From a virus, in the IMG/VR virus record IMGVR_UViG_3300032245_000131, positions 1-23,201 of that record: 23,201 nt of DNA; one strand, given 5' to 3'. Made by a program: the position numbers and the translations under genes. Shown here piece after piece: positions 2,871 through 12,196 of the stretch (position 1 is its first letter; every line of letters begins with the position of its first letter). The notes beneath the pieces were generated by a model that saw only the letters and a program-made list of their open reading frames with translations, did not search any database and was not told where the DNA came from.

Positions 2871-3185
2871 TCGTTACTCCGTAGTTTTGTGGAGTTGACA
2901 TTTTTGCACAATTTGATAAGTTTGTTAGTTTTTTAAAAAATTTTTTTTGTAGGTGTTTAGTGCCGCCACAGTCGCCCCCGCCAAGCCGGCCACGGGGGGG
3001 GGTCGCGGCCACCGACCGCCAGCCGGCCACCGCTGGGTTATCCACGGATTTTGGCCAACCTTATCCACAGATTTCTGTGCATAACTGTCGATGTAATACT
3101 TTGATGCACTTAATTCTGTGGATATCTAGTTATCCACTTAACATAATGGCCATTGTATAAAGTAGCTGAATGCTTCGGTATTCGT
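2871..3185. other. Non-coding region between small genes and terS; candidate origin or packaging region
   Basis: These 315 bases hold no convincing gene on either strand. From left to right there is an AT tract (about 2925-2950, T and A runs), a strikingly GC-rich island (about 2961-3036) with a run of nine G (2994-3002) and a 10-base direct repeat AGCCGGCCAC at 2984 and 3021, then five DnaA-box-like 9-mers (3038-3138). It lies directly downstream of the terminase small subunit and upstream of the terL chain. It could serve replication initiation, terminase recognition (cos/pac), promotion of the terL operon, or several of these. Confidence 0.6.
3038..3138. promoter_or_regulatory. Cluster of five DnaA-box-like sites
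   Basis: TTATCCACG (3038-3046), TTATCCACA (3061-3069, perfect), TGTGCATAA (3076-3084, reverse of TTATGCACA, which fits TTATNCACA), TGTGGATAT (3117-3125, reverse, one mismatch) and TTATCCACT (3130-3138, one mismatch) occur within 101 bases. The E. coli consensus is TTATNCACA. A perfect TTATCCACA is expected about 0.2 times in 23 kb on both strands by chance. DnaA binding is inferred. Confidence 0.55.
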
Positions 3186-4035: not shown

Positions 4036-4364
4036 TCCTCGGATTCTACTGCCGAGGCTTTGGTCTGGAACATATGACACCGGTGCTTGACATCAGTTTG
4101 GAATGCCGCGAGGCCGGTCTGGCCACACTGGTGTTCGGACCATGTGACAGTTGCCCATCCATTTTTCAGCTTGGCCTCTTGCAGCATCCAGTGCAGTGGC
4201 TTTGCGTTGACCTTCCTGTGCCTCTCCAGCTGCTCTGCCGGCATGGACAGGCGCTGCTCCACGTTTACCGCCTTACTGCACTGATGGCAGAAAACGCGCT
4301 CATCTTCCACGAATTTCTCTAATTGTGGATAACCTGTGGATAACTGCGTAACTTGTTGGACCAT
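4020..4364 (-). CDS. Zinc-finger-like protein of unknown function
   Basis: This 114-residue protein has a CxxC knuckle (FCHQCSKAV, Cys26/Cys29) and further Cys and His residues in the second half (HQCGQTG and KHRCHMF), which could complete a zinc site. It is basic and Gln-rich, so nucleic-acid binding is plausible. GGAGA lies seven bases before the ATG. Codons 6-13 contain two tandem perfect DnaA boxes, so the 5' end of the gene may double as replication control sequence. It begins the nuclease-terS transcription group just downstream of the iteron-like region 4391-4570. Confidence 0.75.
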   Translation of the reverse strand: MVQQVTQLSTGYPQLEKFVEDERVFCHQCSKAVNVEQRLSMPAEQLERHRKVNAKPLHWMLQEAKLKNGWATVTWSEHQCGQTGLAAFQTDVKHRCHMFQTKASAVESEEWWLT

Positions 4365-4475
4365 TGCTTTTCTCCAAAAAGGGTGAAAAGTAAACCGGTA
4401 TGGGTTAAGGAAATCTACCGCTTTACCGCTTTACTTTTGACTATCCAAAAACTGACCAGATTGGCCTGTGGATAA
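4324..4475. promoter_or_regulatory. Three perfect DnaA-box-like sites
   Basis: TGTGGATAA (reverse of TTATCCACA) occurs exactly at 4324-4332, 4335-4343 and 4467-4475. The first two start 11 bases apart, about one helical turn, and lie in the first codons of the zinc-finger-like gene. The third lies in the intergenic region among the iteron-like repeats. Three exact copies in 152 bases is far above chance. A role in replication initiation is inference. Confidence 0.55.
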
Positions 4476-4570
4476 GTGGGTCTAAGGACCCCCACTTATA
4501 CCAACAGACCTGCCTTTATCTAAACCGGTATACCGGTTTACTACCGGTTTACTACCGGTTTACCGGTTTA
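4391..4570. repeat. Iteron-like TACCGSTTTA repeats with 20-bp palindrome
   Basis: Eight copies of a 10-mer lie in the 4365-4567 intergenic region and over the stop of the primase-helicase gene. TACCGGTTTA is at 4531, 4542, 4553 and 4561; TACCGCTTTA is at 4416 and 4424; the inverted form TAAACCGGTA is at 4391 and 4521. The inverted copy at 4521 and the direct copy at 4531 form a perfect 20-base palindrome (4521-4540). The pair at 4416/4424 and the pair at 4553/4561 share the same 8-base offset and similar downstream bases (CTTT...TTGA). This looks like protein-binding iterons or operators. Confidence 0.75.
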
Positions 4571-6745
4571 CTTTATTTGAACCCATCCAGAGCTTGACTG
4601 GTCCAATGCAAAGCGCTGGAAAATGGCACTGCTCACGGCCTTTCTCGCATAGCTTTGGTCAGCTACTGGCACTGCTTGGTAGATGTCAGCCCATTCCAGC
4701 TGGTGCATTGATGCCATCTCTTTTGGGACACTTGGCCGGCCAGAACCTCTGCGCATGATGACAGCGCCTTTGGCGTTGATGATGGACTGGACAAAGTTGC
4801 AGGCAGCGTCTGCGGCATCTTGGACTTGCTGCTGTCTTTTGTCGTTCTGTCTGTCGTTAGCTGCCTGCCTTCGGTCTTCTTCCGAGGACATGGCTGGCAC
4901 GACAAGGAGGACCATTTGCTCTTGGATAAGGCCATCTTCATCAAGGACAGTGTCAGCAAAGACATCGGAGTTGAACTTGATTTCTCTAAAGTTTGGCTGG
5001 TAGCGGGTTTTGACCAGGCGCATATAACGGGTCTTGGTCTCATCTTCAAAGAGAACACCCGTGAGGGTTGCATCACCAGTGAATGCGCTGGCTCCACGGG
5101 CAGTGGCATCTGAGTCGGCCTTGCTGATGGTCTTGTTGGTGTGTGTGATGATGCAGACTGGCGTGTCCAGCTGGATGTAGATGGTCTGCTTTAAGGCTGC
5201 AATGAAAGAGCCGACTTCTGAGTTGTCATTCTCATTATCAATATCCATTGTGGCGTTTGCTGTGTCTAATACTAATAATGGCCGGACATTATCTATTGTG
5301 TGGTGAATCACATTATGTGCAAGCATGAGTAAGTCTTTAACTTGGCTGCGCTTGGCATCGATAATCACGAACCAATTGGAGAGTTCACTGGCACTAATCC
5401 CATAATGGCGTGAATATCCAGTGAGTGTGCGCTCGACCTGGTCACTGTCTTCAGTCACTATGATTGTTTTGCGTTTCTTGGTTGCTGTGAGCGCGCAATC
5501 TTTGGCCTGTAAGCCTGCCATGACCATGCATAGGCTGATGACTGCTGTGGTCTTGCCAATGCCAGGCTGACCGGCAAGGACCATGAAACTATGCGCCCAG
5601 AAGCCTTTGACCATGTAGCGGATGGGCTTGATCTGGCCAATGGTCAATGTTCTTTCTGGCCAGCCTTTGGCCTCTTCCACGGCCACTGGTGCATCGCCTT
5701 GGGCCTGACTGATCACCGCGGCAAAGTCTTGCACTGCTGTATTGCGCTCGGTCTGCTTGGTGGGCGGCTCATAGCCACAGTCCTTGGCGTGCTTAAAGAG
5801 TGTGCCAATGCCAACACCCTTGCCCTGGTGAAAGCTCTTCCAATGCTGCTCTATGTCCTTGGTCCCTTGGAATTTGTTGCCTGCCATGGACCATGTCATC
5901 CATGGGCCGAGGCCGGCTTCTCCAAATTCGGTGTGCAGTGCTTGGCCCAACTCGATCCACTGGTCATACTCGCAGTCTGGGGAAATATGGTGCAAAGCCT
6001 TGATGGCACGATCAAGGTCGCTGTCATCCAGTCTTGAGCCTAATTGGGTGAAGTCAAATGATTGACTGGGTGGGGCAGTTGGCTTTGGCTCTTGCAGCTG
6101 GTGCTGCTCGATGATGCCCCAGTCTTGGAGCAAGGCATAAAGGTCCACGGCCTCTTGGAATTCACCGACCAATTGATTGCCAGAAAGTAACACTGACTTG
6201 CCGGCACTGTTTGGCAGGCCGAATACTTCTAACTCTTGGCCACCACCCAGCTTGTACTTTGGCAGCACCTGGTCAGATTCTTTGGGCGGTTGGGTCCATA
6301 AGAAGACATGGCGGCCACGGCCTGAGACAGAGACCTCGGTCAGCATCTTGTTTTGTTTGACGTACTTGGCCATGCGCTGGATGGCCACGTTGGTGGGTCC
6401 ACTTGCGTGCTTCATGTCTACATCGAGGCAAACCAGATAGTTGCCTGATGCGCTGATGATGGGGCGCTGCTGGACTAGGCCAAGATACTGGCCATGAGGG
6501 CATGACTCCATGGCCCAGATGTCTTCAGCGTTGTAGAGGTCTGATGGGTCTGTATCACGCGCCACACCTTGGCCAGACCGCTTGTAGGGGATTTTTTTTG
6601 AGCCTTGCAGGGCAAAGGTGCAGAAGACTGCATCTGGGGCGACAGCGCCAATCTTGCAGGCCACTTGCTGGGACTGGCTGAATGTATCTGGCAGGGGTGT
6701 TTCAGTTAAGATGGTCACTGAAATTCCTTTAGGTTGGGGTTTCAT
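4568..6745 (-). CDS. Bifunctional primase-helicase (AEP-type primase, PriCT-2, RepA-like ATPase)
   Basis: This 725-residue replication protein appears to combine primer synthesis with DNA unwinding. The N-terminal archaeo-eukaryotic primase-like domain (about 25-215) shows the metal motif LDVDMKH (Asp108/Asp110) and the nucleotide motif SGRGRH (141-146). Residues about 243-325 resemble a PriCT-2 domain (DRAIKALHHI ... YDQWIELGQAL ... HWKSF). The C-terminal AAA_25/RepA-like ATPase has Walker A AGQPGIGKTT (391-400) and Walker B LLVLDTA (Asp494), followed by ITHTNK, a plausible sensor motif. An acidic/Gln-rich linker follows and the C-terminal end (about 650-725) looks winged-helix-like. No DNA polymerase gene lies in the window, so it probably recruits the host replisome. 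Its stop codon is inside the last iteron-like repeat. An HTH-only or inactive role is unlikely given the intact motifs. Confidence 0.93.
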   Translation of the reverse strand: MKPQPKGISVTILTETPLPDTFSQSQQVACKIGAVAPDAVFCTFALQGSKKIPYKRSGQGVARDTDPSDLYNAEDIWAMESCPHGQYLGLVQQRPIISASGNYLVCLDVDMKHASGPTNVAIQRMAKYVKQNKMLTEVSVSGRGRHVFLWTQPPKESDQVLPKYKLGGGQELEVFGLPNSAGKSVLLSGNQLVGEFQEAVDLYALLQDWGIIEQHQLQEPKPTAPPSQSFDFTQLGSRLDDSDLDRAIKALHHISPDCEYDQWIELGQALHTEFGEAGLGPWMTWSMAGNKFQGTKDIEQHWKSFHQGKGVGIGTLFKHAKDCGYEPPTKQTERNTAVQDFAAVISQAQGDAPVAVEEAKGWPERTLTIGQIKPIRYMVKGFWAHSFMVLAGQPGIGKTTAVISLCMVMAGLQAKDCALTATKKRKTIIVTEDSDQVERTLTGYSRHYGISASELSNWFVIIDAKRSQVKDLLMLAHNVIHHTIDNVRPLLVLDTANATMDIDNENDNSEVGSFIAALKQTIYIQLDTPVCIITHTNKTISKADSDATARGASAFTGDATLTGVLFEDETKTRYMRLVKTRYQPNFREIKFNSDVFADTVLDEDGLIQEQMVLLVVPAMSSEEDRRQAANDRQNDKRQQQVQDAADAACNFVQSIINAKGAVIMRRGSGRPSVPKEMASMHQLEWADIYQAVPVADQSYARKAVSSAIFQRFALDQSSSGWVQIK

Positions 6746-11100: not shown

Positions 11101-11378
11101 ACTACGGCCCCACACCCCCATGCCCCAAAGACTTGTTCCAGTTTGAATGTGCCGTTGAAGATGTGGACCTTATATGTTTTCTGGAATACAGCCCAGAAGA
11201 GAAAGGCTACAGAGACTCTTATGGTGCGCCCTATGAGCCTGATATTGAAGAGTGCATGACCCTCAACAATGCATACATCGCTGGCACTGATGTGGACATT
11301 GCCCACATGATTCTGCAATCTATGGTGGACCACATTGAAGTGACTGCGCTGGAGAAGTTTAAGGATGGTGATGAATGA
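11097..11378 (+). CDS. Acidic early protein of unknown function
   Basis: This 93-residue protein starts MNYGPTPPCPKDLF and is strongly acidic, with many Asp and Glu residues. The C-terminus is helical (about 65-90, DIAHMILQSMVDHIEVTALEKF). The frame is open 12 bases further upstream, but ATG 11097 forms the ATGA overlap. The stop TGA (11376-11378) overlaps the ATG of the overprinted gene (11375) and lies inside the first codons of the methyltransferase. I do not recognise a family. Acidic small proteins in early phage operons can mimic DNA or bind host factors, but nothing here proves that. Confidence 0.75.
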   Translation: MNYGPTPPCPKDLFQFECAVEDVDLICFLEYSPEEKGYRDSYGAPYEPDIEECMTLNNAYIAGTDVDIAHMILQSMVDHIEVTALEKFKDGDE

Positions 11379-12196
11379 GCTGGCTCTTTTCGCAGGCGCT
11401 GGTGGAGGAATACTCGGAGGCAAGCTCCTTGGATGGCGCACAGTCTGCGCAGTCGAGTGGGAGCCATACCCAGCAAGCGTATTGTGCGCCAGACAAAATG
11501 ACGGCATTCTCGCGCCTTTCCCGATTTGGGATGACGTACAAACCTTTAGAGGAGAACCTTGGCGAGGAATTGTTGACGTTATATCTGGCGGCTTTCCATG
11601 CACCGACATTTCCATCGCTGGCAGAGGAGCAGGGCTTGATGGAGAAAACTCCTCAATGTGGTATCACATGGCGCGGGTGGTTAGCGAAATTCGACCCAGA
11701 TTTGTATTTGTGGAAAACAGCCCAATGCTCATTCATCGAGGAATCGGGCGAGTCCTTGGAGACCTTTCCAGTCTCGGGTATGACTCGAAATGGAATGTTA
11801 TGGGAGCTGCCGACATTGGCGCACCGCACCAGCGCGACCGCATCTGGATTGTGGCGCACGCCCGACACGGGGGGGGGGGGGGACATCTGGAATACTCAAG
11901 CAAGGCAAGAATCATCGAGCGAATGGTCAGCCCGTACAAATCAGACTGGTGGACCAAGTGAACAATCCCAGACTGTGGCCAACACCAGTGTCCAGAATGC
12001 ACAAAGACGGTGGAAATCCCTCGGAGTACAAGAGGAACGAAATCCCCCTAGCGGCACAGGCTGGTGGGCCGCTGAACCCAGTGTGGGTCGAGTGGCTGAT
12101 GGGGTGGCCGCTAGGGTGGACAGACTTAAAGCCATTGGAAACGGGCAAGTCCCACTCTGCGCAGCCACCGCTTGGAGACTCTTGAATGAACAATGA
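11371..12196 (+). CDS. C5-cytosine DNA methyltransferase, frame broken at poly-G
   Basis: The N-terminal part (frame of 11371) has motif I LFAGAGGG (6-13), the catalytic motif IV SGGFPCTDIS with Cys77, motif VI ENS (115-117) and motif VIII QRDRIW (154-159). As sequenced the frame passes through 14 G (11869-11882) and ends at 11961, giving 196 residues without motifs IX-X. The missing end lies in the next frame downstream: VGRVADGVAARVDRL, then IGNGQVP and AATAWRLL, ending at 12196. One G fewer would give a 274-residue enzyme of normal organisation for a small phage methylase. An AAGGA site precedes ATG 11371; ATG 11365 is an alternative. It would protect phage DNA from restriction or mark it. 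The intact upstream and downstream motifs argue against old decay. Confidence 0.85.
11375..12185 (+). CDS. Overprinted gene in the +1 frame of the methyltransferase (frame broken at poly-G)
   Basis: This frame starts at ATG 11375 (ATGA overlap with the upstream stop). It begins MSWLFSQALVEEYSEAS, which is methyltransferase motif I read one base on. It continues through TAFSRLSRFGMTY and ASGLWRTPDTGGGG to the poly-G run. After the run, with one G fewer, it continues in the frame containing NNPRLWPTP, then LNPVWVEWLMGWPLGWTDL, ending at TGA 12183-12185, which directly abuts the next ATG. That gives about 269 residues. I recall phage proteins with SWLFSQALV starts and LNPxWVEWLMGWPxGWTDL ends near cytosine methylases, function unknown. 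As sequenced, with 14 G, the frame instead runs into the methyltransferase C-terminus and stops at 12196 as a 273-residue chimera. Confidence 0.6.
11869..11882 (+). repeat. Poly-G run of 14 bases at the frame break
   Basis: Fourteen consecutive G bases encode a run of glycines in either frame. Tract length modulo 3 decides the outcome. Remainder 1 (13 G) restores both the methyltransferase and the overprinted gene. Remainder 2 (14 G, as given) truncates the methyltransferase and fuses the overprinted N-terminus to the methyltransferase C-terminus. Remainder 0 (15 G) does the reverse fusion and truncates the overprinted frame. Such tracts are prone both to slipped-strand mispairing and to sequencing error. 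Confidence 0.95.

Follow-up and report, generated by a model that had tools for sequence, protein, structure and literature searches.

The C-terminal domains of the initiator helicases SaPI Rep and SCCmec Cch2 recognize iterons in an origin that lies directly downstream of the helicase gene (PMC7581432). In pRN1, a primase-helicase with a C-terminal DNA-binding domain is encoded just upstream of a stem-loop origin, whose structure is conserved more than its sequence (PMC4234260). In the PLE of Vibrio cholerae, the DNA-binding domain of RepA and the iteron origin covary and are exchanged as a module, as was shown experimentally (PMC8263062). At the A-site of the ABC primosome, DnaA of Escherichia coli loads DnaB onto single-stranded DNA (PMC6127211).

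The locus described here lies in a stretch of viral DNA of 23,201 nucleotides (IMG/VR record IMGVR_UViG_3300032245_000131; the whole stretch is called the window). As in SaPI Rep and SCCmec Cch2, a C-terminal domain is proposed as the iteron reader and the origin is placed just 3' of the gene, but here a single chain carries both helicase and primase, the helicase being of AAA_25/RecA-like type, and DnaA boxes and a DnaA-box hairpin are additional parts of the origin; a sequence relation of the phage protein to SaPI Rep or Cch2 was not found. The pRN1-type replicons share with the phage a primase-helicase and a stem-loop in an origin just downstream of its gene, but pRN1 has an SF3 helicase, a stem-loop of ~100 nt and no iterons, whereas the phage has two iteron groups and a DnaA-box hairpin of ~42 nt. 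In the PLE, as here, a module is swapped while the rest of the protein stays, but PLE RepA is a RepA_N protein with an N-terminal DNA-binding domain and ~30-bp iterons, and thus both protein and layout are unrelated. Like the element found here, the A-site has its DnaA box in the stem of a hairpin formed by single-stranded DNA (PMC6127211); what is seen here is the anatomy, and since the phage has its own primase-helicase, the role may differ. The nearest annotated relative is phage ctjtQ328 from Manatee Spring (MW202879.1), whose primase-helicase, annotated as "regulatory protein repA," is 51% identical. It has the same gene order and origin layout, but its iteron sequence is wholly different (TCG-RAGATAC type), the second DnaA-box cluster is missing, and the origin is unannotated. 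The novelty lies in the occurrence of these known features together in one phage family that has a RecA-type primase-helicase and a DnaA-box hairpin, and in an association at the level of residues across a natural panel.

Organization of the iteron region

The sequence TACCGSTTTA is present in eight exact copies within 180 bases of the window (Table 1). With at most one mismatch allowed, nine sites were found in the whole 23.2 kb, compared to a mean of 0.68 and a maximum of 4 in dinucleotide shuffles. The spacings are 8 and 11 bp, so that several direct repeats are at helical spacing. The preliminary description had reported the eight copies, the 20-base palindrome, the doublets with their 8-base offset and three exact DnaA boxes, and all of these are indeed present; the three boxes are all on the - strand and are conserved in relatives. 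It placed the array at the 3' end of the primase-helicase gene; the array adjoins the stop codon but is intergenic and not within the gene, lying in the ~200-bp gap between this codon and the start (ATG at 4364) of the following gene, likewise on the - strand. Coding sequence is overlapped by the first iteron alone, whose TAA, the outermost TAA (4570-4568, - strand reading) of the doublet at 4553-4570, serves as the stop codon. Three elements go beyond the preliminary description, i.e., a degenerate ninth iteron site, a hairpin and a second DnaA-box cluster. The equivalent of the ninth site fits the local iteron type in many relatives, not in all. A search for a family match of the downstream gene, which contains this site, gave none. 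Elsewhere in the window, a cytosine DNA methyltransferase-like gene (11365-12196) is seemingly broken into the overlapping frames 11365-11961, 11375-12196 and 11790-12185, perhaps by sequencing error or decay.

TABLE 1 Coordinates of the features in the window
Feature	Position	Strand	Remarks
Second DnaA-box cluster, five DnaA-box-like 9-mers (one exact)	3038..3138		Inverted pairs
Downstream gene, 114 aa	4020..4364	-	CxxC motifs; contains two DnaA boxes and the ninth iteron site
Degenerate ninth iteron site TACCGCCTTA	4266..4275	+	Inside downstream gene
DnaA box TTATCCACA, exact	4324..4332	-	First codons of downstream gene; kept in nearly all relatives
DnaA box TTATCCACA, exact	4335..4343	-	First codons of downstream gene; degenerate (e.g., TTATGCACA) in type C clade
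Exact TACCGSTTTA sites (start and strand)	4391..4570		4391(-), 4416(+), 4424(+), 4521(-), 4531(+), 4542(+), 4553(+), 4561(+)
Iteron TACCGGTTTA	4391..4400	-	Second group; inverted relative to neighbors
Iteron doublet, TACCGCTTTA twice	4416..4433	+	Second group; 8-bp offset
Conserved hairpin, ~42 nt	4466..4507	-	DnaA box 4467-4475 lies entirely in the 3' arm
DnaA box TTATCCACA, exact	4467..4475	-	Within hairpin
Palindrome of 20 bp, TAAACCGGTA and TACCGGTTTA	4521..4540		First group; two iterons
Iteron TACCGGTTTA	4542..4551	+	First group; neighbors 11 bp away
Iteron doublet	4553..4570	+	8-bp offset
Primase-helicase, 725 aa	4568..6745	-	Primase-like N-terminal part; PriCT_2 at residues 248-320; AAA_25 RecA-like helicase at 370-539
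C-terminal domain, residues 622-725	4571..4882	-	Putative iteron-binding domain
Cro/C1-type helix-turn-helix protein, 66 aa	10689..10889		

Relatives and repeat types

About 100 related phage contigs were compared. When IMG/VR was scanned with the primase-helicase, 80 loci with 71 to 97% identity were retrieved, and extra scans seeded by MW202879.1 (51%) and by a divergent locus led to 97 distinct downstream regions. Nearly all of the 97 have the same layout 3' of the gene: iterons at 8- and 11-bp spacing that end in an inverted copy, then the hairpin, then a doublet and an inverted copy and, finally, DnaA boxes where the following gene starts. This layout is kept from 97% to ~50% protein identity despite changes in the repeat sequence, which is TAAACCGGTA or TAAAGCGGTA in type A, TAATGCGGTA in type B, CTAATRCGGAA in type C, TAATCCGGTA in type E and TCGRAGATAC-like in type D, the MW202879 clade. 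About half of the primase-helicase residues differ between the A-C and the D clades. The repeats are kept in the relatives, and they change in concert across the sites, whereas the exact DnaA boxes and the hairpin persist while the iterons change between lineages.

A scan of genome contigs retrieved one relative, L081 (CAINTF010000009.1; 67% identity), on a contig binned as an uncultured Acidimicrobium MAG. This contig may be a mis-binned phage contig or a clue to the host; because the scan gave this single relative, no host is claimed.

GC skew turns at the array

For skew analysis, we used 20 near-full-length relatives from IMG/VR (33.7 to 38.6 kb, five with short terminal repeats) and MW202879.1. 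The minimum of the detrended circular cumulative GC skew was ≤520 bp from the primase-helicase stop codon in 21/21 genomes, and in 20 of them, it was 14 to 377 bp inside the 3' end of the gene. By chance, a minimum would fall in an interval of that size in ~3% of cases per genome, the genomes being related to one another. The GC skew at third codon positions of the co-directional flanking genes also flipped sign at the primase-helicase 3' end in 21/21, and since the flip occurs between co-directional genes, gene direction is not the cause of the turn. Opposite skew on either side fits two forks leaving from one point.

Type A to C iterons were found at one place only in the 21 near-full-length relatives and are absent elsewhere in the genomes that carry them. 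The exact box TTATCCACA occurs, in the near-full-length relatives, only at the origin and in the second cluster ~1.5 kb off, with one exception (G016). This second cluster, 3' of the terminase small-subunit gene and ~1.4 to 1.7 kb from the origin, might itself be the firing origin, in which case the array would serve the primase-helicase for autoregulation or incompatibility (handcuffing). With five DnaA-like boxes close to where the DNA of the window is least stable (2513-2950), the cluster indeed has the look of a chromosomal-type origin; duplex stability is just moderately low at 4281-4540 and lower at 2513-2950 and 10909, and a strongly AT-rich unwinding element beside the iterons was not found by duplex stability in the window. 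However, the minimum of the skew is on the opposite side, at the 3' end of the primase-helicase gene, in 20/21 genomes. Moreover, types A, B, C and E keep the cluster, but no member of the D clade has it, although iterons, hairpin and boxes are retained there. We therefore regard firing from the second cluster as very improbable. Beside the cluster, in a long intergenic stretch near the terminase genes, there is a conserved T/A tract with a G-run (2928-3010) that might be a packaging or regulatory site.

Family A DNA polymerases were not detected in 22 records, nor were PolIII-alpha and family B DNA polymerases in 11 records, with positive controls run in both cases; a DNA_pol_B_2 search, for which there was no positive control, was left out of this negative result. 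With none of these polymerases detected in the near-full-length relatives, it is indeed plausible, as the preliminary description had considered, that the phage uses the host replisome. That description had also named the region a candidate replication origin, and the turn of the skew at the array (third codon positions included), the conserved layout and the concerted change of the repeats all speak for it. Judged from these sequence features, the repeat stretch is very probably the replication start of the phage.

The primase-helicase and its C-terminal domain

PHROG primase families matched residues 48 to 347 and 100 to 351 of the primase-helicase, and DxD and SGRGRH motifs are invariant. 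A Pfam match to Prim-Pol (archaeo-eukaryotic primase) was not found in the protein, nor was an SF3 helicase family; instead, AAA_25 was matched, with a weak match to DnaB_C. In the AlphaFold prediction, the C-terminal domain was the sole part predicted confidently. The full-length prediction was poor outside this domain (mean pLDDT of 40.8), and therefore, the domain assignments for the rest of the protein are based on the family matches. The only whole-protein match among solved structures, to pentatricopeptide-repeat chains, covered a stretch of 36 residues and was taken as spurious.

In the predicted C-terminal domain, a long helix is followed by two strands, a helix-turn-helix and one more strand, an order that may tentatively be called winged-helix-like. 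The name is tentative because no solved structure clearly matches the domain: a Foldseek search of the PDB gave no match below an E value of 2, the match in BFVD was a member of the same phage family, and VIA-align gave Z scores of 3.0 to 3.5 to winged-helix parts of CRP and Cullin-2, among glutaredoxins that scored equally. Solved homologues of the domain were not found by sequence, and plasmids carrying a relative of it were not found either. We read the RRGxGRP stretch around residue 668 as AT-hook-like.

Iteron sequence covaries with the C-terminal domain

Concerted change was followed in 513 iterons from 71 regions with A, B, C or E repeats. Iterons within one phage agreed by 98.8% at position 4 and by 100% at position 9; pooled across phages, position 4 was A in 302, T in 206 and G in 5 iterons, and position 9 was T in 377 and A in 136. 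In an alignment of 75 primase-helicases, 14 columns separated type A from type B, and all of them were in residues 630 to 719 of 725. Among the 71 distinct regions, iteron position 4 was separated by just 3 columns of 725 (658, 668 and 716), and position 9 was separated by 15 columns, all in 631 to 725. Thus, all positions tracking the repeat type are in the last ~95 residues of the protein. Residue 668 was S with TAAA in 38/38 regions and P or A with TAAT in 33/33, the divergent L159 included. In the D clade, TAAA/TAAT and the GRP motif are both missing. When A1 and A2 iterons were compared, the C-terminal domain again came out on top, with no clean separation. This pattern suggests that the C-terminal domain of the primase-helicase probably reads the iterons.

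Natural recombinants exchange the domain together with the origin

Three loci (L027, L032 and L035) are nearest to type A through the helicase part of the primase-helicase gene, but from ~-330 to ~+200 bp around the stop codon, they are 90 to 100% identical to type B, versus 75 to 85%. The left edge of this cassette coincides with the boundary of the C-terminal domain. In the 12-kb loci of L032 and L035, no other segment was markedly closer to B; G007, the full record of L027, has more B-like segments elsewhere, and L027 retains one type A iteron among type B ones. By these exchanges, type B cassettes have come to lie on two different backbones, and as far as the alignments tell, the exchanged unit is the C-terminal domain plus the origin. 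The primase-helicase genes of the three loci are mosaic, with codons ~290 to 610 being A-like and the parts before and after being shared with, or closer to, B.

The C-terminal codons abut the iterons, and therefore, linkage alone could give an association between protein and repeats, with a different phage or host protein reading the latter. The strongest A1/A2 associations are indeed at the very end of the protein. Linkage does not explain, however, how eight separate sites could change in unison with the hairpin and the boxes between them retained, and S668 tracks iteron position 4 in all 71 regions and the left edge of the cassette is at the domain boundary. Concerted change at eight sites and the sharp edges of the cassette speak against linkage as a full explanation, short of proving contact, and mere linkage is thus considered unlikely.

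The recombinants also bear on the question of whether the repeats are operators of a transcription regulator that controls the downstream genes, for example, of a Cro-like protein, with the origin nearby but not using them. An operator might well have inverted as well as direct sites of 10 bp ahead of a gene, and a Cro/C1-type helix-turn-helix protein is encoded in the window (Table 1). However, no sigma-70-like promoter was found at 4200-4750, the skew turns at the array, and in L032 and L035, the iteron type was switched together with the C-terminal domain and with no other segment of the 12 kb. Because iterons of types A to C are unique in their genomes and, in the recombinants, move with the C-terminal domain but with no other neighboring segment, the operator reading is weakened and seems very unlikely; recognition by the C-terminal domain remains our preferred reading.

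A conserved hairpin holds a DnaA box

When the segment between the two iteron groups was folded as single-stranded DNA, the hairpin had a z score of -3.0 in the window and of -4.0 to -7.9 in seven relatives. The DnaA box was paired in 39/39 distinct hairpins, with 6 to 9 of its 9 bases in pairs, and the arms vary in step on both sides (AAGTGGG/CCCACTT, AAATGGG/CCCATTT and AAAGGGG/CCCCTTT). Relatives with as little as ~50% protein identity retain the hairpin. Since no T-run follows the stem, it is no ordinary terminator; a separate weak terminator-like stem is at 4466-4454 on the - strand. Searches for a known RNA or tRNA in the region gave no hit.

Proposed mechanism and implications

Taken together, the sequence data make it highly likely that the region is the bidirectional origin of a tailed phage of ~35 kb seemingly without a replicative polymerase, in which the C-terminal domain binds the iterons, DnaA uses the boxes, and domain and iterons form an exchangeable specificity cassette. 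The C-terminal domain (approximately residues 622 to 725) would bind both iteron groups, as covariation and co-exchange suggest. The bound helicase and host DnaA at the boxes would then open the DNA near the primase-helicase 3' end, a place indicated by the GC skew, the proteins being those that we would expect. The single-stranded segment between the iteron groups would fold into the hairpin with the DnaA box in its stem, a structure that the foldings support, and this hairpin would likely give DnaA, the helicase loader of the host or the primase of the phage a place to land or to prime. Forks would depart both ways on the host polymerase, in line with the two-sided sign of the skew and with the missing matches to family A, family B and PolIII-alpha polymerases.

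A more specific picture is possible but doubtful: a freshwater phage family in which the cassette of C-terminal domain and iterons recombines at a fixed domain boundary, a residue-base code (S668 with TAAA, P/A668 with TAAT, and residues 697 to 710 with position 9) sets specificity, and the DnaA-box hairpin hands the opened origin to host DnaA. In this picture, selection on the cassette may stem from satellites or coinfecting relatives with a shared use of the origin. Initiator domain and origin occur in the recombinants both as matched and as unmatched pairs, and a residue-base code is therefore directly testable.

To our knowledge, origins have rarely been mapped in uncultivated phages; here, the sequences of many relatives allowed one to be located. 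The presence of the hairpin in phages without a recognized DNA polymerase raises the idea of a borrowed single-strand DnaA loading site that would recruit the host replisome.
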